Assembly: GCF_000196435.1 (NCBI RefSeq)
Contig: NC_010161.1
Coordinates: 2,499,001 to 2,563,000, forward strand
Direction of reading: 5' to 3'
Length of the DNA stretch: 64,000 nt
Origin: Bartonella tribocorum CIP 105476
GTDB lineage: Bacteria; Pseudomonadota; Alphaproteobacteria; Rhizobiales; Rhizobiaceae
The notes below the pieces were generated by a model. The model ran no database searches, was not told where the DNA came from, and was given only the letters and a program-made list of their open reading frames with translations. Of this stretch, positions 39,804 through 59,739 are shown one piece after another (the first letter of the stretch is position 1; every line of letters begins with the position of its first letter). The position numbers and the translations under genes were made by a program.

Positions 39804-39851
39804 TTTGCTCTCCAAATCAATGGAGAGACCATAACAACAAGAGCTCCCTTT

Positions 39852-39877
39852 CATAAGTCTGACACTGTCAGTCAAAA
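39852..39877 (-). promoter_or_regulatory. Late promoter element 3 (before the tail sheath operon)
   Basis: On the minus strand: TTTTGACTGACAGTGTCAG followed by ACTTATGA. Contains the dyad CTGACA-G-TGTCAG. One of three near-identical copies, each 48-58 bases before the first gene of a late block. Confidence 0.75.
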
Positions 39878-39897
39878 AAGCCCTTTAAAAGGGCTTT
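39874..39897 (-). terminator. Rho-independent terminator of the capsid/baseplate/fibre operon
   Basis: Minus strand: AAAGCCC-TTTTAAA-GGGCTTTTTT, a strong GC stem with a T-run. It ends exactly where the late promoter element of the sheath operon begins, so one block is closed and the next opened. Confidence 0.85.
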
Positions 39898-39948
39898 GAA
39901 AGAGATTTTAAAAACATATCAAGCATCATTACACTATTGTTTGAGTGT

Positions 39949-40161
39949 CTAAGCTTCTTCACCTTTTTCTTGTGATTTATGCCTAGGCTCTGCCATTGTG
40001 TCTTTATCCACCACGGGAGGAGAGAACACTCCGTCTTTGTAAGTCCAGCCGATTTGTGCTTCACTTGAGCGGATAGCTTCACCATCAAAGGCATGGACAT
40101 AATTCTCAGATGCGACAATAATATTCGTTACTACACCATTTTCAACAACTGCATATTTCAT
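39949..40161 (-). CDS. Small tail-fibre-associated protein
   Basis: 70 residues: MKYAVVENGVVTNIIVASE start, GWTYKDGVFSPP, Lys/Glu-rich end. Short proteins with this N..VVTNI...G..Y.DG.F..P pattern follow tail fibre genes in several phages; precise role unknown. Last gene of the capsid/baseplate/fibre operon. Confidence 0.65.
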   Translation of the reverse strand: MKYAVVENGVVTNIIVASENYVHAFDGEAIRSSEAQIGWTYKDGVFSPPVVDKDTMAEPRHKSQEKGEEA

Positions 40162-40170
40162 GAAAAACTC

Positions 40171-41487
40171 CTATATAAAAAATCTCAACAATATTGCGCC
40201 ATTTCCACCGTCACCACTGTTGTAATTTGCTGCATCCTTTCCAGGAAAATAACCGCCACCACCACCACCTGCATCAGCTTGGTTATGGCCACCTTTACCA
40301 CCTTTACCACCTTTGTCACTTTCACCACCACAGCCACCATTACCATTATTAGATCCCCCGCCGCCGCCTCCACCTCCAAAAAGAGAACTTCCACCCGAGT
40401 AGCTTCCGCCATCTCCACCATCACCGCCAGAAAAAATAAAGTTTTTAATGCTTGTGTAACCTCCTCTTCCTCCTTTTCCTACTGTTTCGGTAACTCCACT
40501 ACCATTAGAGCCTATACTCCCACCATTGGCGATGAGAACCCCTTCAATAATCGTGGCACCACCATTACCATTTTTACCACCACCACCAATTTGAATATTT
40601 TTTGCTTTTCTAAGCTGAGATCCTTTGATTTTAACGCGTACACATTGCCCTCCACCGCCTCCACCTCCACCATAATAGGTGTATGTGATACGACCGTTAT
40701 AAGTAGTTTTTAACCGGACTCCAGTCCCTCCACTGCCTCCACCTCCCCATGCCCATATTTCTACCTCTGTGTCATCAGTGACATCTGCGGGAAATGGAAG
40801 TGTACCACTTTCTGTAATGAGAATTTCAACCGGTTTTTTGACTAATGAAGCTATTAATTTATCTATTTCTGATTTCGTATAAACAACATCACCATCCACT
40901 TTAAGCGGTCCTTTCAACGTGCTTCCCGTTGTGCTTAAACTTGTCACCGTTTCACCATTATGAATAAGGCTAAACGGCGAATTATCCAAAAGTTCTAAGC
41001 CACCACTCATGGTGACTTTGCTGGTAAATTTATTGTAATTTTTCCATTCATTTGGGCTTGTGAGGCGCCCATAACTTGTTAGATCTTGATTAATCTTAGC
41101 TCTAAAATCATCAAGCCCCACGATATCTTCGGTTTTATGCTGGTGCGCGCCTAACAGGGAGACAGCACTACCAAAGGTAAAATTGTTGTTGCTTGATTTA
41201 TAGAGAACATAATTATTTGCTGCATCTTTTGCCCCCTCGATATCGCTTAAATCAGCAAATGAGAAAGTTTTATCGGCTGCCATCTTGCCATTGAGAGTGC
41301 TTTCTAGATCTGTGATTTCACTTATGGTATGCGTGTGTTGTAAAGGCGCTTTTTCGTCTATTTTTTCCTCAACAGCCACAAGCGCTTGATCAAGTTTATT
41401 GAGGTTTTCACGCAAAATAGGGAATTCAGAACTGATAAAACGCCCTTCTTGTGGCAATTCCATGTCGAGTTTTTTGGTTTTTGTCAT
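40171..41487 (-). CDS. Tail fibre protein with polyglycine tip domain
   Basis: 438 residues. N-terminal attachment region, HTHTISEITDL and HQHKTEDIVGLDDF motifs usual in phage fibres, then from about residue 245 a domain with runs of glycine (GGGGSGG, YYGGGGGGGG, GGGGGGGSNNG, DAGGGGGGYFPG). Such glycine-rich tips resemble the polyglycine sandwich of phage receptor-binding adhesins, so this is likely the host-recognition tip. Confidence 0.8.
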   Translation of the reverse strand: MTKTKKLDMELPQEGRFISSEFPILRENLNKLDQALVAVEEKIDEKAPLQHTHTISEITDLESTLNGKMAADKTFSFADLSDIEGAKDAANNYVLYKSSNNNFTFGSAVSLLGAHQHKTEDIVGLDDFRAKINQDLTSYGRLTSPNEWKNYNKFTSKVTMSGGLELLDNSPFSLIHNGETVTSLSTTGSTLKGPLKVDGDVVYTKSEIDKLIASLVKKPVEILITESGTLPFPADVTDDTEVEIWAWGGGGSGGTGVRLKTTYNGRITYTYYGGGGGGGGQCVRVKIKGSQLRKAKNIQIGGGGKNGNGGATIIEGVLIANGGSIGSNGSGVTETVGKGGRGGYTSIKNFIFSGGDGGDGGSYSGGSSLFGGGGGGGGSNNGNGGCGGESDKGGKGGKGGHNQADAGGGGGGYFPGKDAANYNSGDGGNGAILLRFFI

Positions 41488-41501
41488 CTCTTATTCTCCC
41501 A

Positions 41502-44500
41502 TCATATGATGCCGGCGCCAAAATCACACACCATGGAACGCGCCGCCGGTCCACCGGTAAGGGTGAGTTTAAGGCGTGCTTGTTTGGCTGTTTTGTCACC
41601 ACTAATAAATTTGCGCTCTGTCCAGAGAGGCTCCGATAACTGTTCTGTTTCATCGAGTTTCAAAGGGACAAACGCCCCATCATCCAGTTGCATCTCGAGG
41701 GTGAAAGAGGAACCGCCCGGCAAGAAGGTTTTGATATAGCTGGTCAATCTTGCCTTTTCCCCAAAGGCAAAAGCCCGCGTGATATAAGTTGCTGTTTTAT
41801 GAATCTTTCCTGCAATCAACTGAACCGGGGCAAATAACACCGGAGAGAGTTTCTCTGTGCCTTTAAGAATGGCGCGAAGCTTGACCTTTTCACTGATATA
41901 TTCGCTAAGGCTTAGCAATTGAAAGGGTAGCAGTTGGTAAACCGTGCCGTTGTTGCGTTCAATTTCAAAGATGACAGAGCAATCGCTTGAAGGCAATTCT
42001 ACCGCTGCACGCACTTGCAAATCAGAACAATCCACAAGATCAAAGGTGCCTAAATCAACCATCTTTTCTGTTTGCCTGTAGCGTGCAGCCAACACCCGAA
42101 AGGCTAATGCTTCATCTTGATGGGCGCTCCAGCTTTGTGCATTGACAGAAGAAAAGCGCGGACCCGTCACATAGGGGTGGCTTGAGACATATCTTTGGCT
42201 GTCTTTATCAAAATCCCCAAGTTTAGCCAGTGATACGGAATGATCCGCATCATCGGTTTTAATGACAAAGGCGGTCAGACGGTCATCAGGGACGGTTAAG
42301 GGTACATCATAGCGTGCGCTAGCCCAGCCGGTTTTGGCACCCTTCATGGAATAAGATGTTTGGGCTTGAATATCAGCGGTCGGATAACCGTTTTCGGTGG
42401 TGACCAAATCAATCACCAGATCATGGGCTTGATTGCCTATTTTACAAAGATGGAAATCAATCCCCGTGATTTGCCGTGTTTCATCAGGGGTAAAGACTTG
42501 GGCTTGCGGGTCTACTTGTGTCCATATTTTCACCGTGGTGGTACGTCGCATCACCTTTACATCAATCACCCCTTGACCGGTAAAAAGCCCTGTTGCAACG
42601 GTGCCCCCTCTGCCTCGTGCAATCACATTCTTTGTACCAGCCGTAATATTCGCAGGAATGCTAAAGATGCCTTCAAGGGTGCCTTTGCTATCGGCAACAA
42701 GGCGGCTGTTGGGTAAGACATCCACACCATCAAAGGTAAGGCTTTCCAAGATTTCACCACGACCAAAGCCTTCAATCTTAAAATTCAGCTTAATTTGTCT
42801 TAAAAAATCGATTTGCTCTCGAGTCTCATTGATGAGGTCATCACGTACTTCCGTGTTACGGATAGTTCTCCCGCGATTCCATCCCATATTGAGTTGATTG
42901 GTGACACTTGAGAGCCAATCGGTGCGCTGTTCATGCCAAAAATCTGTTGCGGGGGTAAGGGAGACAGTCCCGGGGAGAGGTGCAAAATTTTGATAGGGGT
43001 TGATCTTTTCGCAAGCCGTAGTCAATTCTTGCGCAATGATCACTTCATTGGTCCAGTCAAGTGTGACAGGGGCGTTCAGGGGGGCAGTATAAAAGGTTGG
43101 ATCAATGGCAAGCTGTAAAATGCCATGACCAATAGCCCCTGTTTGGGGAAACCCTTCATCGCGATAACTGTCATCGAGAAAAGGGTCTGCAAACATGCCT
43201 TTTTTGGCAACAGGCTCTTTAGAGTCAACATTGCTTTTAATGCGCTCTAATTGCATGAGGCGGTCAAGAGAGAGCACCCGTTGAAAATAACGCCACATCT
43301 CATCATAAGGGGCAACACGCGTGCCATCATTAGCCACTTGGGGGGTGCTAAGCCAATTGTTGGTAATGGTAGCAAGGGAGAGCACATCATCCGGGACACT
43401 GGGAGCCATGGGTTGGTCTGCCGAGACGCCTTTGATATAGACAACATTGCCTCCTGTGTTGAGACCAATACGGTCAATGCGGGGGAGTTTATAAGTGTAG
43501 CTTACAATGATATCACCTCCCTCAGCCCCTCCTGAGACGGTGATTTCCTGCGCTGTTACTTTATCCGCTTTTATGCTCGCGCGGTATCGATAGGTCACTT
43601 TATAACTACTGCCGGGGAGTGGTTCATCGCCCATGGGCGCCCAATCAATGGTGTCTCCGGTTTTTTTGAAATCCTTGCCTTCTTTAAATTCCTTGGTTCC
43701 TTGAACAATTTTGATAAAAGCGGTGATACTTTTGTCCGCCACCCCATCACGCCCGGAGGCAACTGCACCGCGAGTGATTGTCACGGTTTTTTCTTTCGTC
43801 AACAAAAGGGAATGAACAGCGGCAATGGGGGTATAATAGGTTTTAAAGGTAAAGCTTGTCTTGCCCTTTGGAGGTGCAAAAATATGGGTTTCACTAGGAA
43901 CGGCACTTGTCGAAAAGTCCTCGAGTTCTTCATAGCGCAAAGCAGCCAAGCGCTTGCGTTTGAAACCATTGATATTGGCTTCTCCCTCTTGAATACTGAA
44001 CACTTGCTTTTGTCCCTCTTGCCCCAAAGCTGTGACACGGCATCCCCCCACGATATAGTGTCCATGGGAGCGATCATACGTCGCAATGGCTTGCATAGCG
44101 GGTTCAAGTAATGAGGGGGATTTTTGATCAATCAAAACACCATCTTGCAAGATATAGACCGGAAAAAAAGTCCCTTTCTGGTCATCATCTTTGAGAGCCC
44201 AGACAAGTTTTGCGACCTCGCGTGCCGCACCTCCTTCTCCTTCTGCCAAGGACCCTGTAACTTGTCCTAACAGTTCTGGATCATCCTCATAGGTCACCCA
44301 TTTCTTTTGCAACTTTACACCGATTTCCACGCGCCCCATCATGGAAATATTCGTGAGAACAGCATTTGAGACGGGAAAGATATCGCCTGCAATATAAATC
44401 TTACCCTCCGTTAAGGTAACGGTCTTTGTGTCTTTGTTGACAAAGGCATCTGCTCGTTCAACGCGGTCTCCTTCTTGTGCCACAAGGCGCCCCAAACGGT

Positions 44501-44645
44501 CATGACGCCCCCTGATGATGGTTTGCATTTCATTGAGTTCACCACCTTGAAGAAAAGAGCGCCTGCCATAAAACACCACGCTTTGTTGTTCATCTTTGCC
44601 GACCGATCTATCAATTGCAAAGGGTAGTCCGCTTTCATGTTTCAT
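41502..44645 (-). CDS. Large DUF4815-type tail/fibre protein
   Basis: 1047 residues. N-terminal FYGRRSFLQGGELNEMQTIIRGRHDRLG and SEGKIYIAGD-like segment (TLTEGKIYIAGDIFPV) match the DUF4815 start; the rest is beta-rich. Lies between gene I and the fibre gene, so probably a baseplate-to-fibre connector or side fibre. Starts 2 bases after gene I ends. Confidence 0.75.
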   Translation of the reverse strand: MKHESGLPFAIDRSVGKDEQQSVVFYGRRSFLQGGELNEMQTIIRGRHDRLGRLVAQEGDRVERADAFVNKDTKTVTLTEGKIYIAGDIFPVSNAVLTNISMMGRVEIGVKLQKKWVTYEDDPELLGQVTGSLAEGEGGAAREVAKLVWALKDDDQKGTFFPVYILQDGVLIDQKSPSLLEPAMQAIATYDRSHGHYIVGGCRVTALGQEGQKQVFSIQEGEANINGFKRKRLAALRYEELEDFSTSAVPSETHIFAPPKGKTSFTFKTYYTPIAAVHSLLLTKEKTVTITRGAVASGRDGVADKSITAFIKIVQGTKEFKEGKDFKKTGDTIDWAPMGDEPLPGSSYKVTYRYRASIKADKVTAQEITVSGGAEGGDIIVSYTYKLPRIDRIGLNTGGNVVYIKGVSADQPMAPSVPDDVLSLATITNNWLSTPQVANDGTRVAPYDEMWRYFQRVLSLDRLMQLERIKSNVDSKEPVAKKGMFADPFLDDSYRDEGFPQTGAIGHGILQLAIDPTFYTAPLNAPVTLDWTNEVIIAQELTTACEKINPYQNFAPLPGTVSLTPATDFWHEQRTDWLSSVTNQLNMGWNRGRTIRNTEVRDDLINETREQIDFLRQIKLNFKIEGFGRGEILESLTFDGVDVLPNSRLVADSKGTLEGIFSIPANITAGTKNVIARGRGGTVATGLFTGQGVIDVKVMRRTTTVKIWTQVDPQAQVFTPDETRQITGIDFHLCKIGNQAHDLVIDLVTTENGYPTADIQAQTSYSMKGAKTGWASARYDVPLTVPDDRLTAFVIKTDDADHSVSLAKLGDFDKDSQRYVSSHPYVTGPRFSSVNAQSWSAHQDEALAFRVLAARYRQTEKMVDLGTFDLVDCSDLQVRAAVELPSSDCSVIFEIERNNGTVYQLLPFQLLSLSEYISEKVKLRAILKGTEKLSPVLFAPVQLIAGKIHKTATYITRAFAFGEKARLTSYIKTFLPGGSSFTLEMQLDDGAFVPLKLDETEQLSEPLWTERKFISGDKTAKQARLKLTLTGGPAARSMVCDFGAGII

Positions 44646-44646
44646 G

Positions 44647-45753
44647 TTAAAACCTCAATAAAATCTTGAATTGTTCGCGAACATCGGCACGCAAAGGAAT
44701 ATTAATGGGCGTTTTGAGTATCTCGACACCGCCATTGAGTTCATCAGGCTCCAACCAAAGCTTGCCAACCGCTATGTTTTCTGCGGGGGTAGCGTGAACG
44801 AGAATGGAAACAAAAGCTGCTTGTTTCCCGTCAACATCGTGAAAGTCTGTACGGGCAGCAAGAAACAACAGAGTGCCTGTTGGGGAGGGATTAAATCTGT
44901 TTCCGCAATGGTTGTAAACACCCTCTAAAACCTGTTCGACAGGCGCTACAGCATAGCATCTGCGATACCCAATCACACCATCTTGGCTGTCTCTTAACAC
45001 GAGATAAAGCGTGCGACCATGAAACCACTCTGCCATAAGGATATCGCGTTCATGTTTTTTAACCGAACACCAAGGAAAATTTGCCAAATCCCAAGGGTAA
45101 TCGATTTGGTTCCAGCTTAATTCCTCGTCAAAGTCATCAATCCAGTTGCCAATAAGCTTGCCTTCTTGTTTTGTGAGCGTGTGATTAATTTCTGTGGTGC
45201 GTCCAAAGGAAAACAGAGTGTCACGAGCTGTTAAGCGCACGCCACTTTCAAAATCCAGCATGCTGTCATCAAGGCGTGACATATCGCCTTCTATAGCTCC
45301 CACATCATAACCATAGGTCCCACGGCGAAAATCAGAGCGAAAGCTTTTGGAAAGGTCGACAATGGCTTCAATGGCTTCAAGGCTGCTTTGTTCAGGCAAT
45401 TGATCAAAATCAAGTTGAAAGGAATTCCACCATGCACGCCCTGACCATGCGGGTGTAAAGTGTGCAGAAAGCTCTAACCATTGAAGTCCCAACTCAATGG
45501 CTGCAACAGAACCACGCAAGCGCTGCCATGCAAGCCCTTGGTCAATCAGATCATAAGAATTCGAGAAATAAGGCGTGAGTTCTTGTAAACCATATTCATC
45601 AATGAGAGAGGGCAACCAAGATGGAGGGCGCGTGATTAATTTGGCACGAGAAATATCTTCGAGTGCCCTTTTTACTTGAACATCAACAGCCATTGCATCA
45701 GCAAGGCAGCGTTCAAACAAGCTTGAATTTGGCGGCAATAACAACGAGACCAT
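44647..45753 (-). CDS. Phage tail protein I
   Basis: 368 residues. The first ~150 match P2 gpI (LPPNSSLFERCLADAM; SWLPSLIDEYGLQEL; LRGSVAAIELGLQWLEL); the remaining ~200 are an extension not present in P2 gpI. Baseplate wedge component. ATG at 45753 shares its A with the gene J stop; a TTG one codon earlier is less likely. Confidence 0.85.
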   Translation of the reverse strand: MVSLLLPPNSSLFERCLADAMAVDVQVKRALEDISRAKLITRPPSWLPSLIDEYGLQELTPYFSNSYDLIDQGLAWQRLRGSVAAIELGLQWLELSAHFTPAWSGRAWWNSFQLDFDQLPEQSSLEAIEAIVDLSKSFRSDFRRGTYGYDVGAIEGDMSRLDDSMLDFESGVRLTARDTLFSFGRTTEINHTLTKQEGKLIGNWIDDFDEELSWNQIDYPWDLANFPWCSVKKHERDILMAEWFHGRTLYLVLRDSQDGVIGYRRCYAVAPVEQVLEGVYNHCGNRFNPSPTGTLLFLAARTDFHDVDGKQAAFVSILVHATPAENIAVGKLWLEPDELNGGVEILKTPINIPLRADVREQFKILLRF

Positions 45754-46619
45754 CAATAAGCGTGCCCCCGTAATGATAAGGCAATTTCCCCTAGTGCTAT
45801 CGCCTCATGAGGGGCGACCAGAATATCCTTGCACGGTTGCGTTATCTCCACATGATGCACACCCTCAACCATCAGGCGACTGAGTATCCAACTTAAAGAG
45901 AGATCACGCCCTAGTCTCCATGTACGCGCCCACTCTTCTCTCAAATTCTGCTCTGCCTTTTCTAAAACAAGAAAACCTTCATGAGGCAACAACCAAAGAT
46001 CAGCCGAAATATCGATCACCCGCTGCACGGCACTTTTGACCAAGAGAGTATCATTGGTCATTTTTACCTGTTCTTCATCAAGGGCTGCTTGCACCTTGGC
46101 AATCAAAGCCTCATCAGCCACCCCTGATGGGCTGTCACTAAAAAGCGCCACATGAATGAGCGGGCTTTTACCCTCACGATAAACAAAAGCATCTTTGACA
46201 TGGATATCGCTGGAGAGGGCAAAATATTGGTAGCGGGGCACTGTGCCCCCTGTGGAATGCCCTTGCCTATTTAAGCGAATGCGGCGGCGAAACCGCGCAT
46301 CATCTTCATCTAAAAGGCGCGTAACCCCATGAAAATCTCCCAAATGGTCTAAACTTGTCCCACGCGCAAATTCCAGTAAATTGTCTCGCGCTACTTCATT
46401 AATCCGTTGGCGCAACAGCAACTCTTCATAAGCAGCCGCTTGTAATTGTATGACCACGGGGTCATAAGCGGTCTTTTCCACATTATAGGGAATATGATGA
46501 GCTGCAAAAACATCCACCAAACGCGCAATCTTTTGCTCTAAAATTACTTCAACACAAAGCTCTTCAATAATTTGTGGCAGAGGGAGTTGTGAAAAGGGTA
46601 AATGTTCAAGCTCTGCCAT
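45753..46619 (-). CDS. Baseplate assembly protein J
   Basis: 288 residues, P2 gpJ family: YDPVVIQLQAAAYEELLLRQRINE, ARGTSLDHLGDFHGV, RFRRRIRLNRQGHSTGGT. Forms the wedge with W and I. Start overlaps the end of gene W. Confidence 0.92.
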   Translation of the reverse strand: MAELEHLPFSQLPLPQIIEELCVEVILEQKIARLVDVFAAHHIPYNVEKTAYDPVVIQLQAAAYEELLLRQRINEVARDNLLEFARGTSLDHLGDFHGVTRLLDEDDARFRRRIRLNRQGHSTGGTVPRYQYFALSSDIHVKDAFVYREGKSPLIHVALFSDSPSGVADEALIAKVQAALDEEQVKMTNDTLLVKSAVQRVIDISADLWLLPHEGFLVLEKAEQNLREEWARTWRLGRDLSLSWILSRLMVEGVHHVEITQPCKDILVAPHEAIALGEIALSLRGHAY

Positions 46620-46992
46620 AAAAAACCTCTAAAGGAAATTGCCTCTCTTGCCCATGGGACCAATCCCCCAAATGTCCATCGGGATAAAAAACACCCCTTA
46701 AAACAAAGTGGAATGTCCCCTCGCGCGTTGCTTTGGTCAGATCAATCCTTTGCAATGAGAACCCAGGCTCTCCGCATTCTGGATTATCGAGCGCGCAGGC
46801 AATGGCTTGATAAAGACGTAAGATTGTTGCAGGATCAGCATTGGCATCTTGGAATTCTCTGACATCACACCCATAATGGCGACGCAAAACCCGTGTTCCT
46901 ATCCTTGTCATTAAACATTTATGGAGTGATTGTTGGCAATGATCCCAACCATATAAGAGAGAGCCATCCTTTTCGCTCACCCCACAACGCAT
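46606..46992 (-). CDS. Baseplate protein W (gp25-like)
   Basis: 128 residues, GPW/gp25 family: CLMTRIGTRVLRRHYGCDV near the start, TILRLYQAIACALDNPECGEPGF. gp25-like lysozyme-fold wedge protein initiating sheath assembly. Confidence 0.9.
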   Translation of the reverse strand: MRCGVSEKDGSLLYGWDHCQQSLHKCLMTRIGTRVLRRHYGCDVREFQDANADPATILRLYQAIACALDNPECGEPGFSLQRIDLTKATREGTFHFVLRGVFYPDGHLGDWSHGQERQFPLEVFYGRA

Positions 46993-46995
46993 GGT

Positions 46996-47196: not shown

Positions 47197-47208
47197 GATA
47201 AAACTCCT

Positions 47209-48311: not shown

Positions 48312-48316
48312 TTGAC

Positions 48317-48811: not shown

Positions 48812-48812
48812 G

Positions 48813-49238: not shown

Positions 49239-49253
49239 CTTTTAAAGATTCCC

Positions 49254-50219: not shown

Positions 50220-50231
50220 TTTTAGCCTCGA

Positions 50232-50573
50232 TTAATTAATTTTAAAAGAAATAACATCACCAGCAGAGCCATCACTCATGGCAATACCAATGGTGCGGTC
50301 TGCTGCTTCTGCCTTTATGGCGTGCCCTTTGGGGTCAGAGGTCAAAAAATCACCAAAGGAAACATTGCCCCCACAGATCACTTCGCCCCAGCCACATTGA
50401 CCAACATCAAGCATCTCACCAGCCTTTGCACTCAAAGAGCCGGCAGTGCCTAATAATTTATCACCCTTTCCAGAAGCCGTTGCCACCATTCCCTCAGTTC
50501 GTGCTGCAACAATGCAATAAGGTGAAATTTCCCCAGCAGCGCGAAAAGATTTAATCAAAATCATCGTACTCAT
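50232..50573 (-). CDS. Capsid decoration-like protein (DUF2190 type)
   Basis: 113 residues, rich in Gly/Ala/Ser: YCIVAARTEGMVATASGKGDKLLGTAG, CGWGEVICGGNVSFGDFL, GIAMSDGSAGD. Position between protease and capsid and the small beta-rich composition suggest a capsid cement protein. ATGA overlap with the protease gene. Confidence 0.75.
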   Translation of the reverse strand: MSTMILIKSFRAAGEISPYCIVAARTEGMVATASGKGDKLLGTAGSLSAKAGEMLDVGQCGWGEVICGGNVSFGDFLTSDPKGHAIKAEAADRTIGIAMSDGSAGDVISFKIN

Positions 50574-51619
50574 AATGGGCGCTCCTTTTGTTCACAAATA
50601 TGATCGACCGCTTGGCTAATAGTGATGTCGAAGCCTTTTTTCTTCTGCTCTTCCTGATAATGACGTGCCGCAACAGCAACCTCTTCTGGCGCAAGCTTTG
50701 GTTCTTGTGCTAAGGCACACACTTCTAGAGGGCTTGTTGAGGCAAGCGCCGGCAATTTTTCTATCAAACTTTTAAAATGCTCCATCCCCCCTTCAAGGCT
50801 ACAGAGCGCACGATATTCTGCGCGGGCTGCCGGCAAAATCTTGCCCTCTTCAATGGTCTTGTCTAAAAGACTCTCAATGGCACTGTTTTTTTGCTCTTCT
50901 TGCAAAAGCGCTAAATCTTCTCGCGCTTTTTTTAATTGGGTGCAAAGTTCCACGCGTTCCTTTTCGCGCGCTTTAAGCGTTGCTAAAACCTCATCCGCTT
51001 TAGCATCTTCTGCCAACGATAGTGCACTGGCAATGGCTGTCAAATCCATCATTTTCTCCGTCAAAGTTATAGGGGGTATTTTGGGCTGTTCACGGCTTAA
51101 AGCCGTCATCACAAGGGCTGGACGATTGACCAGTCCAGCACCGGCTAAATTTAAAATTTCACCTTTCTTGGAATGGCGAAACTCAGGCGAAAGATAGCGA
51201 TATTCTCGAGCAATAATTTTTTTGGTAGCCATATCTGTCCATTTAACCCGTCCCCAAATCGCACCATCCCGCTCTGCTAATTCTTCAATCCAGCCGCTTG
51301 CCGGCGCTTCCAAGCCATTTCTCGCACGGTGATGTTGTCCATGCTCATAATCAATCACAAGCGGTCCTTTATTGGCTGCAAAGGCTTTTAAAATAGTTTG
51401 CGGATTATAATGCCATTGTCGTCCATCACGTGCCTTCACATGGGGCGCTTTGGGCAACAACTCTACCCACTCAGGCGCTTGGCTAATGGTGGCGTCTTCA
51501 AATGAAATGTCTTGGCATAAAACGTCTGGACAGAGATCTATTAACGCAGCATGAAATGTCTCATCATAAAATGTCTGGGCATCCCCATCTTTTTGATCTT
51601 CGTGAAATTCCTGTTCCAT
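50570..51619 (-). CDS. Phage capsid maturation protease and scaffold (Mu I-like)
   Basis: 349 residues. N-terminal protease half with LVIDYEHGQHHRARNGLEAPASGWIEEL (catalytic His) and LSPEFRHSKKGEILNLAGAGLVNRPAL (catalytic Ser region of the Mu I family), then from about residue 195 an acidic, Ala-rich coiled coil serving as scaffold. First gene of the second late block, 58 bases after dyad element 2. Confidence 0.9.
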   Translation of the reverse strand: MEQEFHEDQKDGDAQTFYDETFHAALIDLCPDVLCQDISFEDATISQAPEWVELLPKAPHVKARDGRQWHYNPQTILKAFAANKGPLVIDYEHGQHHRARNGLEAPASGWIEELAERDGAIWGRVKWTDMATKKIIAREYRYLSPEFRHSKKGEILNLAGAGLVNRPALVMTALSREQPKIPPITLTEKMMDLTAIASALSLAEDAKADEVLATLKAREKERVELCTQLKKAREDLALLQEEQKNSAIESLLDKTIEEGKILPAARAEYRALCSLEGGMEHFKSLIEKLPALASTSPLEVCALAQEPKLAPEEVAVAARHYQEEQKKKGFDITISQAVDHICEQKERPL

Positions 51620-51677
51620 ACATTGCCTATTGCTTTACAATTGTCATTGGCAATACAATGCATGAAACCGCTTCACC

Positions 51678-51704
51678 TTATAAGTCTGACAGTGTCAGTC
51701 AAAA
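51678..51704 (-). promoter_or_regulatory. Late promoter element 2 (before the protease/capsid operon)
   Basis: Minus strand: TTTTGACTGACACTGTCAG then ACTTATAAG, with dyad CTGACA-C-TGTCAG and a TTATAAG that could serve as -10. An AAAAGAG/CTCTTTT inverted repeat lies just before it. Confidence 0.75.
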
Positions 51705-51879
51705 GAGCATTTCTCAAAAAAGCACTCTTTTCCCTATTATTCTCCTTGTGAGAGAAACCCCCGTGCTAAACCATCCCATAAAATCGTTTTCAAAGGCACT
51801 TCAAAGGCGATAGAGCGCCGTTGTGAAGTGAGAGGTACAAATTATCACTCCACACAACAAAGCCTCTCTCAAGCCGTTT

Positions 51880-52034
51880 TTTTTTAAAGATTGCTTTTGA
51901 ACGTTGAAACTGTTAGATTACCCACGAGGCGTGAGCCAGTTTTGCCAGGACGGTTTTACCGGATCTGCGAGGAGTTGACCGCCCTCCACGCCTTCCCGTT
52001 TTCCCCATCTCGACCCTTCTCCGCAAAGCCAACA
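51880..52034 (-). repeat. Structured tandem repeat, unit A
   Basis: About 155 bp, aligned with unit B at an offset of 175-179. The core GGCGTGGAGGGCGG ... CTCACGCC can fold: GGCGTG/CACGCC closing stem, GGAG/CTCC hairpin and CGGT-AAA-ACCG hairpin. The last hairpin differs from unit B by a compensated base pair. Confidence 0.7.
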
Positions 52035-52054
52035 TGGTTTTTCTCAAAGTGCGT

Positions 52055-52213
52055 TTTTTTAAAGATTGCTTTTAAACTTTTAAACTGTTAGATTACCCGC
52101 GAGGCGTGAGCCAGTTATACCAGGACGGCTTTGCCGGATCTGCGAGGAGTTGACCGCCCTCCACGCCTTCTCATTTTTCCTCACACACCAGTTCCTTCTT
52201 TGCAAAGCCAACA
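52055..52213 (-). repeat. Structured tandem repeat, unit B
   Basis: Second unit, 20 bases from unit A. Same closing stem; hairpin CGGC-AAA-GCCG replaces CGGT-AAA-ACCG. Flanked by T-runs (7 and 9 T on the plus strand) at the left of each unit. Confidence 0.7.
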
Positions 52214-52230
52214 GAGCTTTACGGTGTTCT

Positions 52231-53436: not shown

Positions 53437-55006
53437 GATACCCCAACCCACGTGCAATCATCTGCACCTTTGCCAAGCGTGCTGCCAAGGCATGATGATC
53501 CATCTCACCCAACAATTCATCTAAGCCTTTAAGGATATCCTCATAACTTTTAGCCTCTCTCACAAGCTTTTTAAAAGGTTCTAAAAGGGGTTCTAAATCC
53601 TCTTCCCAGTCGCTTAAAGCTTCTTCAGAAAGCCGATCCAATTCGTCGTGATGTTTCACGCCCTGCTCTCTTTCGCCCTGCTTTCTTGTCACAGAAATAT
53701 CAACAACACCCCCACAATCAGCACAAACATCTGCCTTTTGTTGCCCGGCATCATCAGCTGTAAGGGAAGGAGCCTTTAAAACATCCTCTCCCTTTTTGGG
53801 TTGCGAAAAGCCAATCTTATTGCGCACTTCTTGCGCCCCCACACACAATCCTAAAGGAACAAGTTTTTCCAAAGCATCACTGATGGCTTTAATATCTTCA
53901 TTTTCCGAAATCGGCCAATAGACAAGCGGAGTGCGCTCTTGGGGTCCAAAATTAATCTCAACAAAGGGAACGATTAAATCACGATTAGTGGTCAAGGCTA
54001 ATTGGCGTGCATCAGCTCTAGCAATATCATGGCGTACATTTTCATGAATGCGGGCTTGCGAAAAAGACGAACCATCGTCTGTCGTCATGGTTTGCCCCAA
54101 TACCCCTTTAGAAATCTGCCGATCTAAATATTCAGCCTTCGCGGCAAAAACCGCATTGCCACTGCCCCCTGCTGCTTCAATAAACTCAATCTCCATCTCT
54201 TTGGGAATAATCGCCGCCGCATCACTGGATAAATCACGTACCGCTTGAATCAGAACCCGCCGCTCCTCATGAGAAGAGCTTGCCCCATATTTACCAACAC
54301 GCAAAGGCATGCCATAAACTTCTAAAAATGCCATCCAATCTTTCAGCGTATAAGACTTGAAGAGAAAAGCCCAAGCCGCAAGACGTGCAAGTCCAGAACG
54401 AATAGGCAAACCGCTTTTAAGCTTGGGTCTGTGAATAGAAAATTTATAAGCAGGCAATTCACTTCCATACAAAGACCCCTCTTCTTTTAAACGCAAATGA
54501 AAGCCATCCCGCCGATCCAATTGAAAAAACCGCTGGTCACGCCATTTCCAAGCAACCGGCCACCATTCCTTAGCACTCTTGTCCCACAAAGTTTCAACAA
54601 CCGCATAGCCTTTTCCCAAAGCATCTAACAAATCCGCCACATAATCATCAACAAAAGTCGGTGCACTGATCACTTCCCGCACCGCATCCGCTATCTTTTT
54701 ATCCAATGCACTGTTGCTTGCGGCAATCACCCCAGGCTCCACCCCTGTGAGAGCATTTTTACGCATGCCAAGCACAGCACGATAATGCAAATCGCGCTCT
54801 TCCATATCATCAGCAAGTTGAAAAAACTGTTCTGGAGCCCCCCTTGCTGCCTGCTGCAAAATATCAGCAAGTTGCGCAGGCGTCAAACCACTCACAACAG
54901 TTTGTGACCACACATCACGAACACCCCCAATGGTAGGGCTTGCAACTTCCCGTTCCAATCCCTTTATCTTAAGAGCCCTGCCCCATTGGTCTAAAAGTTG
55001 TACCAT
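53429..55006 (-). CDS. Phage portal protein (DUF935, Mu gp29-like)
   Basis: 525 residues: GLTPAQLADILQQAARG, ERDLHYRAVLGMRKNALTGVEPGV, DYVADLLDALGKGYAVVETLWDKS, WAFLFKSYTLKDWMAFLEVYGMP, all DUF935 signatures. Dodecameric portal for DNA entry. C-terminus rich in Glu/Lys with a CADCGG segment near residue 425. Confidence 0.93.
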   Translation of the reverse strand: MVQLLDQWGRALKIKGLEREVASPTIGGVRDVWSQTVVSGLTPAQLADILQQAARGAPEQFFQLADDMEERDLHYRAVLGMRKNALTGVEPGVIAASNSALDKKIADAVREVISAPTFVDDYVADLLDALGKGYAVVETLWDKSAKEWWPVAWKWRDQRFFQLDRRDGFHLRLKEEGSLYGSELPAYKFSIHRPKLKSGLPIRSGLARLAAWAFLFKSYTLKDWMAFLEVYGMPLRVGKYGASSSHEERRVLIQAVRDLSSDAAAIIPKEMEIEFIEAAGGSGNAVFAAKAEYLDRQISKGVLGQTMTTDDGSSFSQARIHENVRHDIARADARQLALTTNRDLIVPFVEINFGPQERTPLVYWPISENEDIKAISDALEKLVPLGLCVGAQEVRNKIGFSQPKKGEDVLKAPSLTADDAGQQKADVCADCGGVVDISVTRKQGEREQGVKHHDELDRLSEEALSDWEEDLEPLLEPFKKLVREAKSYEDILKGLDELLGEMDHHALAARLAKVQMIARGLGYHG

Positions 55007-55018
55007 TTCATCATCCCA

Positions 55019-56641
55019 TCAATAAATCTTTGATCGCATCGTTGAAACAAAAGCGGGTGAAAAGAGCGGACTTTCATCAAAACCATAAACCTCTCTCACA
55101 GGCGTATATTCGTAAATTTCCGGCGTCTGCCGGCTGGCAAAATAAGCCAAAGCGCAAGCAATCGCGCTATCACCATGACGCATAAAACCATCACTGCCTT
55201 TAAAACGATGATTGTCTGGAATTTTCACAATGCCATTGACATAAGCAAGCGCTTGATGATCCGCAACAATATCGCTATCGCGCGGCAAAACAATGGACCC
55301 ATCCCCAAAAGCTTCCAAATAAGCCGGCATTTCCTTGCCATACCAACTTTGTGACAAGGACACTTCCTTGACAAGACCCCCATAACGCTGTGCCGCTTTT
55401 TCCGCTAAATAAGCCCCATTGCCCCGCGCATCTAACGCACCACCCAACAAACGTGGCAAACCACCCACAACATAAAATAAAATCTCTCTTTGTTGATCAA
55501 ACGGCATATTGCGCAATTCCACCATAAACCGCACACGGCGCACCAAATCTTGTCCCACTTCCATCACCACAATGGAGGTGGCATCACCAGACCTAGCAAA
55601 ATCAACACCAAAAACATGTTGACGCCGCCGATCAAGCCTAGAATGCAAAGGCTTGATATGCTTCTCACACCAAGAAAAAGCAACAATACTTCGTTGTTGT
55701 TCCGATTGATTTTTAAAATCATCCACACAAGCAAAACGCAACACCGCAATATCTTTCGCACAACAATTTTCAATCTGCAAACGCGTTAAAGCCGCCCCTT
55801 CTTGATCCGCCGGTATGGCATCTAACTCTTGGCGCATCGCACTCAAACGCACCCCATAAGAGGCACGAATTTGCTCTTCCCATTGTTGTTCTGCTCCCCT
55901 ACTCCACACCGCCCCCTTCATGGCACAAACCCGTTTAAACAAACCATTTTTAACAGCCTCACCAAAAGGGTAACGATGCAGAGAAAAAGGAACCTTGCCT
56001 GCTTTTGCCTCACGGATCAGTTCATTGAAAGGATTAAGCACACCATTATGGGTGGAGATCACACGGATTTTACCCCCCCAAATAAGCAAAGCATTCACCG
56101 CATCTAAAACAGCGCGCACATCTTGATGAAACGCCGCCTCATCAATCACCACAATGCCCTGTAACCCCCGAATATTTTCAGGGCGGCTTGAGAGCGCTTC
56201 AATACGAAACCCAGAAGCAAAGCGCACCCGATAAGCAGAGATATATTTCGTGGAACCATCCGCCCTTTGATCTGGAAATAAAAATTCCTCTACATCACCA
56301 CTGTGGCTTGTGATTGCCGAAGCAAAATTGCTCACATAGCCAATAAATTCACGCCCCTTATCTTTGGTGTCACCAATATAAAAAACATTATCGCCCCCAG
56401 CCTTAACGCTCGCTGCCGCAATCAGTGTATCATCCAAAGCTTCTGCAAAAGTAATGCCGGTCCGCCGCCCCTTTTCCACCAATTTTAACACAGACTTATC
56501 CTCAATCCATGCCCGTTGATGCGCCATCAAAACACCTTCCGCTAAGGGATCACTCTCTTTGGGAAAAGTGCTCCTCTGCCAAATGTCAAAGTGTGCCTGA
56601 TCTTCAACAGCAGGGCTTCCACCCATCTGCCCTTCAGCCAT
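55019..56641 (-). CDS. Terminase large subunit (Mu gp28-like)
   Basis: 540 residues. ATPase: KLVEKGRRTGITFAEAL (divergent Walker A), GIVVIDEAAFHQDVR (Walker B), ISTHNG coupling motif. Nuclease: VFGVDFARSGDATSIVVMEVG with the first catalytic Asp. Packages DNA headful into the prohead. Its ATG overlaps the gp27 stop by 8 bases. Confidence 0.93.
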   Translation of the reverse strand: MAEGQMGGSPAVEDQAHFDIWQRSTFPKESDPLAEGVLMAHQRAWIEDKSVLKLVEKGRRTGITFAEALDDTLIAAASVKAGGDNVFYIGDTKDKGREFIGYVSNFASAITSHSGDVEEFLFPDQRADGSTKYISAYRVRFASGFRIEALSSRPENIRGLQGIVVIDEAAFHQDVRAVLDAVNALLIWGGKIRVISTHNGVLNPFNELIREAKAGKVPFSLHRYPFGEAVKNGLFKRVCAMKGAVWSRGAEQQWEEQIRASYGVRLSAMRQELDAIPADQEGAALTRLQIENCCAKDIAVLRFACVDDFKNQSEQQRSIVAFSWCEKHIKPLHSRLDRRRQHVFGVDFARSGDATSIVVMEVGQDLVRRVRFMVELRNMPFDQQREILFYVVGGLPRLLGGALDARGNGAYLAEKAAQRYGGLVKEVSLSQSWYGKEMPAYLEAFGDGSIVLPRDSDIVADHQALAYVNGIVKIPDNHRFKGSDGFMRHGDSAIACALAYFASRQTPEIYEYTPVREVYGFDESPLFSPAFVSTMRSKIY

Positions 56642-57215
56642 GTTTTACCCCCAACACCTGCGCACGAATAGCCCGCGCACGCTCTTCTGAAAGCCCCGCC
56701 GCTGCCGCTGCAGCGTCAACCGCTTTGCTTGCTTTTTGGGTAAAATCCTTTTCTAATCTTTGCCGTCTGGTGGTCGACAAATGTTCAGCCGCCAAAACCC
56801 CTTTAAGCGCATTGGCCAATTCTTGGGCTGCCTTTGGTGAAAGGCTTTTTCCACTGCTCAACGTGGAAAAAATCAGCTCTTTAATCGCGGCGGCCGTCAA
56901 CAGAGTAATATTATCAGAAGCCTTGGCATCAAAGCGTTGCGAAAGGCTTGCGGCAATTTCACGGGTTTGCTCCAAGCGCCTTGACATCACAGCCAAACGC
57001 AAAGAATAACGATTAAAACTGGAAAAGGAGGGAATAGAAAAATTGAGACCCGTTTCTTTTTTTAAAGCCTTCAAAGCCGCTTTAAATTCATCATAAATGG
57101 CTTTTTGCGTCTTTTCACGCCCATTTAAAGCCTCAGCCGCCTCTGCAATAATTTGATCACAAGCTTGCGGCAATAAATCAATCGCTGTTAAGCGTCCACG
57201 CCCGACCTTGCGCAT
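56634..57215 (-). CDS. Small terminase-like protein (DUF3486, Mu gp27)
   Basis: 193 residues, mostly helical: GRLTAIDLLPQACDQIIAEAAEAL, FSIPSFSSFNRYSLRLAVMSRRLEQ, matching DUF3486 proteins located before the Mu terminase. Ala/Lys-rich C-terminus. Overlaps the gp26-like gene by 38 bases. Confidence 0.88.
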   Translation of the reverse strand: MRKVGRGRLTAIDLLPQACDQIIAEAAEALNGREKTQKAIYDEFKAALKALKKETGLNFSIPSFSSFNRYSLRLAVMSRRLEQTREIAASLSQRFDAKASDNITLLTAAAIKELIFSTLSSGKSLSPKAAQELANALKGVLAAEHLSTTRRQRLEKDFTQKASKAVDAAAAAAGLSEERARAIRAQVLGVKHG

Positions 57216-57534
57216 CCCTCACCTCGTCTTTTATCGATGAACGTTTGGGGCGTTTAATCCCCTCAATGAAAAAGCTCCGGTCTAAATGACGTGCCCCCCG
57301 TTCCGTTAAAGCCGCAAGCAAAACAGAACCCACACATTTTAACGTAACAGCCCCTTGCTCTTCCATAAAAGCCAATTCATTCCGGACAAAATCACCATCC
57401 CGCCGGATACCGTAACTGTATAAAAGCCGCTCAATCATCGCACTCGATAAGGTTTCGCTCCGCTCACAAGCAAGCCCTTTTAAAATAATCAACCGCGCTT
57501 CTTCACGGATGATTTTATCCATATCTGCTTTCAT
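57178..57534 (-). CDS. Mu gp26-like protein
   Basis: 118 residues: IREEARLIILKGLACERSETLSSAMIERLL, a winged-helix-like region GDFVRNELAFMEEQGAV, TERGARHLDRSFFIEGIKRP. Conserved between gp25 and gp27 in Mu-like phages; likely DNA-binding role in packaging, not proven. ATGA overlap with the gp25-like gene. Confidence 0.8.
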   Translation of the reverse strand: MKADMDKIIREEARLIILKGLACERSETLSSAMIERLLYSYGIRRDGDFVRNELAFMEEQGAVTLKCVGSVLLAALTERGARHLDRSFFIEGIKRPKRSSIKDEVRDAQGRAWTLNSD

Positions 57535-57845
57535 TTCTTGGCATTCTCCAGTAAAAATTCTTGCAAGCGCTCACCAATGGCTGCCACCGGTTGTAATTGC
57601 GCAGAAAGCGTATTGAGGCGACCATTCAATTTCTCCATATTCACTTCCAACCTCTGCAGCGCATCACGATCAGGCAAAAAATCTATCTCCGTCTCTAACT
57701 TTTGCACACGCTCTTTAAGCGCCGTGATGTCTTTCAACATTTCCCGCGCACCAGAAGAAAAATAAGCTTTCAAAACCCCACAAATGGCAACAATGGATAA
57801 CAACAAAGACAGCCAACCATTAGCCACACTAATATCTAAATTCAC
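57531..57845 (-). CDS. DUF2730 protein (Mu gp25-like)
   Basis: 104 residues: one membrane segment about 10-30 (WLSLLLSIVAICGVLKAYF), then a coiled coil (ITALKERVQKLETEIDFLPDRDALQRLEV). Function unknown; consistent with DUF2730 in the lysis/packaging junction. Confidence 0.85.
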   Translation of the reverse strand: MNLDISVANGWLSLLLSIVAICGVLKAYFSSGAREMLKDITALKERVQKLETEIDFLPDRDALQRLEVNMEKLNGRLNTLSAQLQPVAAIGERLQEFLLENAKK

Positions 57846-58125
57846 GCCCCCTCCTTGACCTCATTAAAACTGCTTTAACCGCAGCTTTTCTACGCTGTTC
57901 ACAAATCAATAAAGCAGCACGATCACGGCTCCAATAATGCACCACTTCGCGCGTGTTCAAAGCATGTTCCGGCAACAAAGAAGGCTGGTGACACGCCATG
58001 CGAACAACAGGTGGCAATTCAGCCGATAAAAACGAATAAGAAAAGCTATCTCTTAGCTTGGGTGTTGAGCAAGCGCACACGCTCAAGCCCAAGACAACCG
58101 CTAGGAACAGTTGGCAAAACTGCAT
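57829..58125 (-). CDS. Rz1-like outer-membrane spanin (lipoprotein)
   Basis: 98 residues. Signal with lipobox LSVCAC near residue 18, then STPKLRDSFSYSF and Pro-containing LPPVVRM. It starts inside the end of the Rz-like gene (80-base overlap), the usual nested Rz/Rz1 layout. Longer and more basic at the end than E. coli Rz1. Confidence 0.7.
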   Translation of the reverse strand: MQFCQLFLAVVLGLSVCACSTPKLRDSFSYSFLSAELPPVVRMACHQPSLLPEHALNTREVVHYWSRDRAALLICEQRRKAAVKAVLMRSRRGREFRY

Positions 58126-58387
58126 TGATCTCCTCCATTTTTGTAAGCTTTTGTTCCAAACTAGAAATCACCGCTTGTGCTTGAAGCCCTGCTTTTTGCG
58201 CAGCCTCTCTTTGCCTCTCTTGTTCAAGCCGTGCTTGTAAAGAAATCTTGGCAATCTCCAAGCGCCAATACACATCACGCGCTTTTTCCGCCTTTAAAAC
58301 TTGCGCTTTCATAAAGCCAAAAGCCGCCAACATCACACCGCCCCAAAAAAGCAAACCCAAAGACAGTTTCAAAACAGGGCTAAACAT
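58046..58387 (-). CDS. Rz-like inner-membrane spanin
   Basis: 113 residues from ATG 58387, which overlaps the holin-like stop by 8 bases (GTG 58399 is an alternative). One membrane segment about 7-25 (LSLGLLFWGGVMLAAFGF), then a long coiled coil (RLEQERQREAAQKAGLQAQ; SLEQKLTKMEEIN). Pairs with the Rz1-like protein to fuse membranes at lysis. Confidence 0.75.
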   Translation of the reverse strand: MFSPVLKLSLGLLFWGGVMLAAFGFMKAQVLKAEKARDVYWRLEIAKISLQARLEQERQREAAQKAGLQAQAVISSLEQKLTKMEEINAVLPTVPSGCLGLERVRLLNTQAKR

Positions 58388-58667
58388 GGCGCTTATCACT
58401 CCACCCCGTTATCTCCACCCCATCATAGACGCTGCTATGCTGCTTATGAGAATGTTTCCTATTGGAAAAATCCAACGAACCAAAACCACGATGCACCCCC
58501 AAATTCCCAACGATAATCGCCACCATGGAAGGAATAGAAATCGCTGCCATATCAACAATACGTGGTGCTCCCCACAAACCACCAGCAATCAGCAAAAAAA
58601 TAACCCCCCAAGCAAACCAAAAGGACCACCATAAATAACGTTTCGAACCACGATAAGAGGGTTTCAT
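58380..58667 (-). CDS. Putative holin
   Basis: 95 residues with two membrane segments (YLWWSFWFAWGVIFLLIAGG, about 12-33, and AAISIPSMVAIIVGNLGV, about 41-60), a basic N-terminus and a charged His-rich C-terminus. Directly follows the endolysin by ATGA overlap. Assigned from size, topology and position only. Confidence 0.65.
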   Translation of the reverse strand: MKPSYRGSKRYLWWSFWFAWGVIFLLIAGGLWGAPRIVDMAAISIPSMVAIIVGNLGVHRGFGSLDFSNRKHSHKQHSSVYDGVEITGWSDKRHV

Positions 58668-59245
58668 GCTTCCACCTCGCCTCCAATCCCCAAAAGCTTT
58701 TTGGCGCGGTTCAAATAGGTCAAGCGGTGCACAAGTCCATTTCTTCCCCCATTAATTGCCTTGGTAATCCCCACGACATCATCTCGATCAGCAAGCTTAT
58801 TTAAGCCTTTCATCTGCCAAAACCAAACAGCCGACCAAAGGGCTGCAGGAAACTTTTCCAGCACTTGCGGAAATGCCTCACAATCAACCGCTTGTTCATC
58901 GATTAAGCGCCAAAACTTCGTAAAACGACGGTAATTATTGCGCCCCGTCAACTGGATCAAACCACGTCCCTTAAAATGCACCCCATCACCAGGGTTGACA
59001 TTACCTAAATCACGCCGCCCCTCATAAGCGCGCCCTGAGGCATATTCACGCAGGGTAAAAAAGCCATCACTCTCATGCGCACATTGGCTTAAAAAATGTG
59101 CAATACGCAAATGCGTCGTGAGTTCCCCATAAGATAAAGCTTTAGGCAACACGCGTGCCATTTCAACAATAATAAAATCTTGGCGCGCATGATGCGTCAG
59201 TTTAGGCGCAAGGCAATGAAGAAAAGAGGCATCTATTGAAATCAT
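58664..59245 (-). CDS. Endolysin, glycoside hydrolase family 19
   Basis: 193 residues, chitinase-class GH19 lysozyme: AHFLSQCAHESDGFFTLREYASG with catalytic Glu near residue 57, RDLGN, KGRGLIQLTGRNNYRRF, and ITKAINGG. Cleaves peptidoglycan for host lysis. First gene of the first late block; dyad element 1 ends 57 bases before it. Confidence 0.9.
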   Translation of the reverse strand: MISIDASFLHCLAPKLTHHARQDFIIVEMARVLPKALSYGELTTHLRIAHFLSQCAHESDGFFTLREYASGRAYEGRRDLGNVNPGDGVHFKGRGLIQLTGRNNYRRFTKFWRLIDEQAVDCEAFPQVLEKFPAALWSAVWFWQMKGLNKLADRDDVVGITKAINGGRNGLVHRLTYLNRAKKLLGIGGEVEA

Positions 59246-59302
59246 AACAAACCACTCAATGAATAAAATTCATTCGCAGTTTACGAAATCTCACGCCCCC
59301 CA

Positions 59303-59328
59303 TATAAGCCTGACACTGTCAGTCAAAA
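59303..59328 (-). promoter_or_regulatory. Late promoter element 1 (before the lysis/packaging operon)
   Basis: Minus strand: TTTTGACTGACAGTGTCAG then GCTTATA, dyad CTGACA-G-TGTCAG. Lies in the 86-base gap between the Mor/C-like activator stop and the endolysin start, like Plys downstream of C in Mu. Confidence 0.75.
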
Positions 59329-59331
59329 CCC

Positions 59332-59739
59332 TCAATACTCATAAAACTCTGGAAATAATAAACCTTGGGGCTCTTTTGAAGAAATTCTCTTCTTTAAGCG
59401 ATAGGCTGTACGCACATGCATACCAGAAACTGCTGCTGCAGCATCTACCGACCAGCCTTTTTGCAGCGCTTGCATCATTTTTTGCCGCCGTTCAGCATCT
59501 CTACCAAGGGGGATAAGAAGGCGCACACCCGAACCATTAAAACAAAAATGGTTGATCAATTGCTCCGCCTCTTCAAACCCAACAATTTCAATCAACCAAT
59601 CCGCATTCTCAAGACGCCCAGGGATATAAACTTCTCGTCCGCCAAAAGCACGCATCATATTCCATGCCGCCTCACTGCCCGCAACAGCGGCTATTTCACG
59701 CAATAAGGCAGGAAAATCGCTATAGATTTCCTCGTGCAT
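59332..59739 (-). CDS. Mor/C-family late transcription activator
   Basis: 135 residues. FPALLREIAAVAGSEAAWNMM and AFGGREVYIPG are the Mor dimerisation-domain signatures; LGRDAERRQKMMQALQKGWS and DAAAAVSGMHVRTAYRLKKR form the C-terminal helix-turn-helix. Mor and C in Mu are dimers that activate phage promoters with poor -35 elements. Position right before the endolysin matches C. Likely binds the three CTGACA-N-TGTCAG elements. Confidence 0.92.
   Translation of the reverse strand: MHEEIYSDFPALLREIAAVAGSEAAWNMMRAFGGREVYIPGRLENADWLIEIVGFEEAEQLINHFCFNGSGVRLLIPLGRDAERRQKMMQALQKGWSVDAAAAVSGMHVRTAYRLKKRISSKEPQGLLFPEFYEY

Follow-up and report, generated by a model that had tools for sequence, protein, structure and literature searches.

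In bacteriophage Mu, according to the accessible parts of two papers (PMC4461284, PMC4287176), a single protein, C, activates Plys, PI, PP, and Pmom, and its dyad-symmetric sites lie upstream of the -35 region. The site of Mor, as stated in the available sections of PMC4390567 and PMC4287176, is a 16-bp element with two 5-bp repeats; it is centered at -43.5 and replaces the -35 element. The available portion of PMC2697382 describes a 35-kb Mu-similar prophage in Bartonella tribocorum and places many of the genes found only in this species in a prophage present in four genomic islands. We analyzed 64,000 nucleotides of B. tribocorum CIP 105476 (NC_010161.1, positions 2,499,001 to 2,563,000; here the window), which carry a Mu-like prophage, and followed up an earlier note that had paired a Mor/C-like gene with a dyad lying ahead of three late gene blocks. 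The 135-residue product of this gene is very probably the late activator of the prophage, acting through dyads in three late promoters. This reading fits every computational test made (the regulon of Ochrobactrum phage POA1180, co-occurrence in Bartonella, dyads in distant prophages, -10 spacing, and helix-base covariation). Our verdict, reached by sequence comparison, is that the late regulon is real and constitutes a variant of the Mu C system. A literature search for an earlier description, with subscription journals mostly outside its coverage, found the promoter mechanism only in Mu itself. The features that carry the argument are listed below by window position.

59332..59739, minus strand: predicted Mor/C-like late activator, 135 residues, phrog_836; recognition-helix residues V109, R110, Y113, and R114
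59304..59328, minus strand: activator element of the lys late promoter, TTTTGA-CTGACAGTGTCAG-GCTTAT, dyad at 59310-59322 (exact-dyad scan)
58664..59245, minus strand: endolysin, first gene of the lysis/head late block (phrog_181, E 4e-53)
51680..51704, minus strand: activator element of the protease late promoter, dyad at 51686-51698 (exact-dyad scan)
50570..51619, minus strand: Mu I-like head maturation protease (PF10123, E 2.5e-50)
39853..39877, minus strand: activator element of the sheath late promoter, dyad at 39859-39871 (exact-dyad scan)
38514..39803, minus strand: tail sheath, first gene of the tail block (phrog_23, E 2e-89); the start is taken as ATG 39803, whereas the open reading frame list has an upstream TTG

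The dyad CTGACANTGTCAG occurred with 0 mismatches at exactly these three places in the 64 kb, always on the minus strand and ahead of the endolysin, protease, and sheath genes, as the earlier note had reported. Its statement that the window holds no other copy is true of exact dyads. A dyad with one mismatch lies at 30443, inside an ABC-permease gene outside the prophage, and the -10 pair is absent from both strands there. When up to 3 mismatches were allowed, there were 23 matches in the window compared to a mean of 18.85 in shuffled sequences, and looser copies were therefore treated as background, from which the three exact dyads stand out. The motif ranges given previously were correctly located but 1 to 2 bases too long, as the full TTTTGA-dyad-RCTTAT element spans 25 bases. 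The motifs are indeed close to the genes, but because of those ranges the distances of 48 to 58 bases need correction to 49 (sheath, ATG 39803), 60 (protease, ATG 51619), and 58 (endolysin, ATG 59245). The activator gene adjoins the lys copy as proposed, with its stop codon ending at 59332, 3 bases from the element.

Many copies elsewhere in the host would have spoken against a prophage regulon. The 2.64-Mb genome contains 16 exact dyad places, all in copies or remnants of the prophage, plus 2 with one mismatch, and the reversed-pattern control gave 0 exact places. All 15 of the other dyad loci aligned with the window prophage by BLAST, the 16th place being the window. Two of them, L001 and L002 (at 388886 and 537805), are partial prophage copies or remnants with 87 to 90% identity. 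Control of host genes by the dyad was ruled out, as no exact copy in this genome lies outside prophage DNA.

The same arrangement was found in Ochrobactrum phage POA1180, whose activator gp51 is 48.8% identical over residues 7 to 129. This complete phage (41,655 bases) has exactly three exact dyads, located before the endolysin (gp52), protease (gp05), and sheath (gp22) genes as in the window, but they lack the TTTTGA and RCTTAT flanks. The accessible part of the POA1180 paper (PMC5492332) contained no mention of a promoter, activator, or palindrome. The lys-site dyad was present at the equivalent place in POA1180 and most Bartonella relatives. Among 71 Bartonella genomes, 26 had an activator match and 34 an exact dyad; the dyad was present in 26/26 activator-bearing genomes (including G009, whose match covers only 35 residues near a contig end) compared to 8/45 genomes without the activator (Fisher p = 1e-12). 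The reversed pattern occurred once in each of 7 genomes, which is the chance level. Seven of the 8 dyad-only genomes had a prophage-type promoter as judged by the flanks, and the remaining one (G003) had a terminator-like palindrome; one locus was examined in each, plus two more in G040. In one IMG/VR contig (L016:3935-4033), an activator relative matched over the first 33 codons only (91%), followed by unrelated sequence.

Distant prophages carried dyads of their own. In a first round of 20, nine had a dyad, with three copies in seven and two copies in two; the three-copy dyads of G196 and G307 were counted with one arm change. The copies were located after the activator stop codon and then about 8 to 10 and 18 to 24 kb downstream, and examples are CCGACA-NN-TGTCGG, CTGAAC-NN-GTTCAG, GCGACG-CG-CGTCGC, and GTAACA-NN-TGTTAC. 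Eleven prophages gave no dyad at first, and four of these (G087, G328, G406, and G439) later yielded one. Under a fixed rule applied to 61 prophages, a recurring dyad was found at 22/61 activator-end anchors (one of them, in G155, probably by chance) compared to 15/488 random anchors. The spacer is 1 bp in the window, the Bartonella relatives, and POA1180 and 2 bp in most other phages. The linker before the helix-turn-helix (HTH) is shorter by three residues in the same group, which is suggestive of spacer length following linker length, with two lineages contributing to the comparison. In G784 (L239-L240), CGGAAN-type dyads with a -10-like pair occurred at at least 5 places instead of the usual three, which could reflect either a larger regulon or relaxed matching.

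The distance from the dyad to the -10 region is fixed. At 24 of 31 discovery sites (25 distant, 3 from POA1180, and 3 from the window), an A at +27 was combined with a T at +31 from the dyad edge, compared to 10 or fewer at any offset in 5000 shuffles; this pattern was first spotted by eye in the same data. A held-out repeat with 41 prophages gave a recurring dyad in 12 of them and a total of 26 sites, which were chosen by a dyad-only rule written after their listings had been seen. The A27/T31 pair was present at 19/26 of these sites and within one base at 24/26, with a shuffle maximum of 8 over all offsets. All 65 distinct Bartonella promoters had the pair at 27/31 or 28/32 with none left unclassified, although these are close relatives and were picked with TTAT required after the dyad. 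The positions were A28/T32 in 23 and A27/T31 in 2 of the 25 lys promoters, A27/T31 in 11 and A28/T32 in 2 of the 13 protease promoters, and A27/T31 in 20 and A28/T32 in 7 of the 27 sheath promoters. The putative -10 elements of the window are as follows.

59278..59283, minus strand: TAAACT, putative -10 of the lys promoter, at +27 to +32 from the dyad edge, one base beyond the usual +26 to +31
51655..51660, minus strand: CATTGT, putative -10 of the protease promoter, at +26 to +31
39828..39833, minus strand: TATGGT, putative -10 of the sheath promoter, at +26 to +31

If the A is -11 and the T is -7, the dyad would be centered at -44 (13 bp) or -44.5 (14 bp). With this assumed numbering, the promoters have the makeup of a Mor/C-type regulon, namely a dyad near -44, a -10 element, and no good -35 element. 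The late-promoter -10s are poor matches, which fits the expectation for activator-dependent promoters. An initial assignment of TTTTGACT as the -35 with TTAT as the -10 (a 14-base spacer) was abandoned after the +27/+31 pair was found. Between its -10 and start codon, each late leader also carries an inverted repeat (59259-59273, 51622-51654, and 39808-39827, with the arms ATGAAT/ATTCAT, ATTGCC/GGCAAT, and CTCTCC/GGAGAG, respectively), by eye mostly retained in the Bartonella relatives. A role of these repeats as RNA elements was set aside, the 5' arms lying by eye upstream of the inferred start in 2 of 3. An imperfect repeat of about 160 bases (87%; 51879-52034 and 52054-52213) lies just upstream of the protease promoter.

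The fixed spacing bears on a different explanation, in which the dyads would close the upstream transcript, either as intrinsic terminators or as antitermination sites. Many dyads directly follow the activator stop codon, and some distant ones extend into GC-rich stems followed by T runs, as in G456 and at the sheath site of POA1180, where the dyad is also terminator-like. However, no T run follows the window dyads, the protease dyad is more than 500 bases from the preceding gene, and the sheath dyad has a separate terminator-like hairpin immediately upstream (by eye). In Bartonella, moreover, the distance from the activator stop to the dyad varies from 0 to roughly 90 bases, whereas that from the dyad to the -10 is fixed within one base, and the dyad bases covary with helix residues (see below). 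Termination was rejected for the window and its Bartonella relatives on the absent T run and the fixed -10 distance, and we consider it highly unlikely overall.

For the covariation with the recognition helix, we compared 124 protein columns as predictors of each half-site base, with significance assessed by label permutation. The sample consisted of 33 phages with an assigned dyad, or 30 after collapsing those more than 60% identical (G087, L072, and G606), with a mean identity of 33%; in three of these 30, the dyad is known at lys only. The dyads were obtained from recurrence at the activator end or from scans in which the -10 pair was an additional requirement (G328, G406, G439, and G128), and the helix was never used. 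G395 and G722 were set aside as GC-rich imperfect repeats although they scored above 2.0 and above their own shuffles, as were G288b, G144, G504, and G355, which exceeded their own shuffles at lower scores. Also excluded were G155b and G536, which were weak, and L055, which has Phe113, a half-site read as GTGAAC, and an ambiguous spacer. The best predictors of bases 1, 2, 3, and 5 were residues 109, 113, 110, and 114, respectively. For base 1, Arg109 was found with G in 5/5 phages and Glu109 with C in 13/13 (1/400 permutations reached the score). For base 2, Glu113 was found with C in 7/7, Tyr, Trp, or Phe with T in 10/10, and Leu with T in 3/3, with one case each of Gln with C and Lys with T (0/400). 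For base 3, Arg110 accompanied G in 26/26, Gln or Leu accompanied A in 2, and Ser accompanied C in 2 (0/400). For base 5, Arg114 accompanied C in 21/21 and other residues A in 8/9 (10/400). The signal was weaker for base 6 (43/400) and absent for base 4 (81/400). With their spacing of i, i+1, i+4, i+5, the four residues would lie together on one helix face, and since all columns share the same phylogeny, descent alone does not explain their lead.

Because accepting dyads in this set was partly a matter of judgment, we also built a stricter automatic set from the anchor-rule dyads, POA1180, and the window (24 phages, 22 after collapsing), which includes the probable chance dyad of G155 and one that is probably misregistered (G598). 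Y113 again ranked first for base 2 (0/300 permutations) and R110 for base 3 (6/300). The links to bases 2 and 3 are therefore robust, while those to bases 1 and 5 depend on the larger, partly hand-chosen set. Base-2 calls written before the scans were right for 8 of 10 accepted recurring dyads (G328, G406, G128, G584, G473, G606, G638a, and G784, with G473 and G606 being close relatives) and wrong for G668 and G598. The G668 dyad was accepted although it only equaled its highest shuffle, and it counts against the code; G439 was excluded from the tally because its palindrome had been seen beforehand. No convincing dyad was found in G144, with a predicted GC, in either the prediction scan or a code-led search. 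This code-led, non-blind search detected three CCGAC dyads in G196b and a single CTGAC dyad each in G434 and G355.

Besides the terminator-like dyads mentioned above, several results weigh against the activator reading or the code. A recurring dyad was lacking under the fixed rule in 39/61 distant prophages, partly of other helix subtypes, so the late-promoter architecture may apply to only a part of phrog_836. The strict A27/T31 pair was missing from 7/31 discovery sites and 7/26 later sites, and the protein missed the cutoff of the Pfam Mor family (PF08765; 21.6 versus 24.9 bits). Arg113 accompanied G in 6 phages and T in two others (G668 and G598). In the automatic set, base 1 was led by L115 (4/300) with V109 second, and base 5 was led by E51, which was not significant (165/300), with R114 second. 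As the automatic set weakened bases 1 and 5, we lowered our confidence in the code from quite likely to likely, and that in the activator reading by the slightest step within very probable. With these exceptions among the 22 to 30 phages on which it is based, we consider it likely that, in Mu-like phages of Alphaproteobacteria, the Mor/C-like activators recognize their sites through a readable helix-to-base code. In this code, residue 113 would set base 2 and residue 110 base 3, and less certainly residue 109 base 1 and residue 114 base 5, with the -10 fixed to the proximal half-site and spacer length perhaps following the linker. As part of the same proposal, residue 113 would read C as Glu, T as an aromatic residue or Leu, and mostly G as Arg; residue 110 would read G as Arg; residue 109, G as Arg and C as Glu; and residue 114, C as Arg and otherwise A.

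The covariation is also relevant to the question of whether the dyad instead serves a different phage regulator as its operator, either a repressor or a second activator, and lies close to the Mor/C-like gene by coincidence. A repressor could likewise bind a symmetric site located ahead of late genes. However, among phages with different dyads, no other column follows bases 2 and 3 as closely as residues 113 and 110, respectively, in either set, the dyad and the activator gene co-occur, and a position of -44 suits an activator, making another regulator very unlikely.

The proposed activator matched the phrog_836 profile (late transcriptional activator) over its full length (E 2.1e-29, residues 1 to 129 on 4 to 132 of 133). 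Because its PF08765 score is below the curated cutoff, we label it Mor/C-like rather than a Pfam Mor member; a Mor match at E <= 0.001 was obtained for 24 of 38 alignment members, the window protein included. Alignment to Mu Mor and C with hhalign (probability 95.7, E 9e-9) indicated homology in the C-terminal half. Mu Mor and C matched phrog_836 at 1e-10 and 2e-11 as their second-best family, but phrog_532 was far better for both. In a structure profile search, Mor 1rr7 (E 3e-5) ranked behind 8vd6 ('CAP REPEAT'), which repeatedly matched an HTH-like stretch only, and the Mu C entries 9l0x and 9vw8 were weak matches (E about 0.2). We describe the protein as a Mor/C-like member of a family related to the Mu Mor/C family phrog_532, which would work like Mu C.

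From its transposase onward, the prophage lies on the minus strand and encodes the transposase, a MuB-like ATPase, DUF3164, GemA, the Mor/C-like activator, endolysin, terminase, portal, protease, capsid, tail fiber, sheath, tail genes, and a D12 methylase, with an approximate end, by gene content, before the host-type ABC-transporter gene at 30794-31771. Two further genes complete the layout.

59746..60363, minus strand: GemA, directly before the activator gene (PF06252, E 9.6e-28)
32283..33104, minus strand: D12-class DNA adenine methylase, last gene of the tail block, without an exact dyad of its own (PF02086, E 4.2e-29)

The dyads and their positions, conservation, -10 spacing, and covariation with the helix are observed at the sequence level, and from these we infer binding, dimerization, polymerase contact, and timing. 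The activator would be made from a gene at the end of the early operon, immediately following gemA, and a dimer would bind CTGACA-N-TGTCAG centered at about -44 in the three late promoters. Sitting in place of a -35 element, it would recruit host RNA polymerase to the weak -10, 25 bases downstream. The lysis/terminase/portal, protease/head/tail-fiber, and sheath/tail-core blocks would thereby be switched on, perhaps together with the methylase. The earlier suggestion that the methylase escapes dyad control was not supported. Although the scan of the 64-kb window found no exact dyad before it, the gene shares the strand of the sheath block and lies downstream of it, and the terminator scan found no minus-strand terminator-like site in the gap before it (33104-33247), so transcription from the sheath promoter may extend into the methylase. 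The upstream tail genes contain nine terminator-like places (16 in the whole scanned region on both strands versus 9.3 expected), and we therefore regard this read-through as a possibility.

The protein may also replace the middle-stage regulator, with one activator doing the work of Mu Mor and C in a two-stage cascade. Four phrog_836 matches for four three-site prophage copies in this genome, together with an activator gene directly after gemA, where Mu has mor, suggest such a cascade. A middle regulator of another family could escape detection, and we rate the two-stage cascade as somewhat better than an even chance.

Isolated copies of the sheath-type late promoter were seen at L001, L002, and L108 and probably, judging by leader and first codons, at L087, L088, L093, L101, L106, L107, and L109. 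At L108, a phage-tail-repeat/glycine-rich tail gene precedes the promoter, and a short open reading frame, a HigB-like toxin gene (PF05015, E 8e-13), and an HTH gene (antitoxin-like by eye) follow. Tail-gene pieces precede the L001 promoter, and a short open reading frame and an HTH gene follow. These copies are possibly a dispersed tail-fiber cassette that would still answer to the activator.

While genetic and biochemical work has established the late activator of Mu and its four promoters, the operator, the geometry, and a partial residue-to-base map are obtained here from phage comparison, making the late operons of uncharacterized Mu-like prophages predictable. If the code is true, the sequence of an activator could be used to predict its operator, and the late regulons of related prophages would be insulated; such separate late switches suggest how related prophages could share one host. 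A one-activator cascade (gemA-activator-lys) is also suggested to coexist with Mu-like two-activator arrangements. In each of G434 and G355 (L114 and L124), two phrog_836-type activators stand in tandem, the second being preceded by a single CTGAC-type dyad and a -10-like hexamer, an arrangement that resembles the Mor-Pm-C step of Mu; the G355 dyad lies inside the open frame of the second activator, yet before its conserved domain.

The system of the window is similar to Mu C in having a single activator, encoded just before lys, and dyads at lys and at the protease (Mu gene I). It differs in its operator, CTGACA-N-TGTCAG, in its best-matching family (phrog_836 rather than phrog_532), and in its third promoter, which precedes the sheath gene and not P. 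Unlike Pmom in Mu, no fourth dyad precedes the DNA modification gene. The Mu gene order is gemA, mor, three open reading frames, C, and lys, whereas the activator gene directly follows gemA here. The homologous C-terminal half and a dyad near -44 in place of the -35 element are shared with Mor and Pm. In contrast, the Mor site consists of two 5-bp repeats with a 6-bp spacer at one middle promoter, while 13-bp dyads are located at three late promoters in the B. tribocorum prophage.

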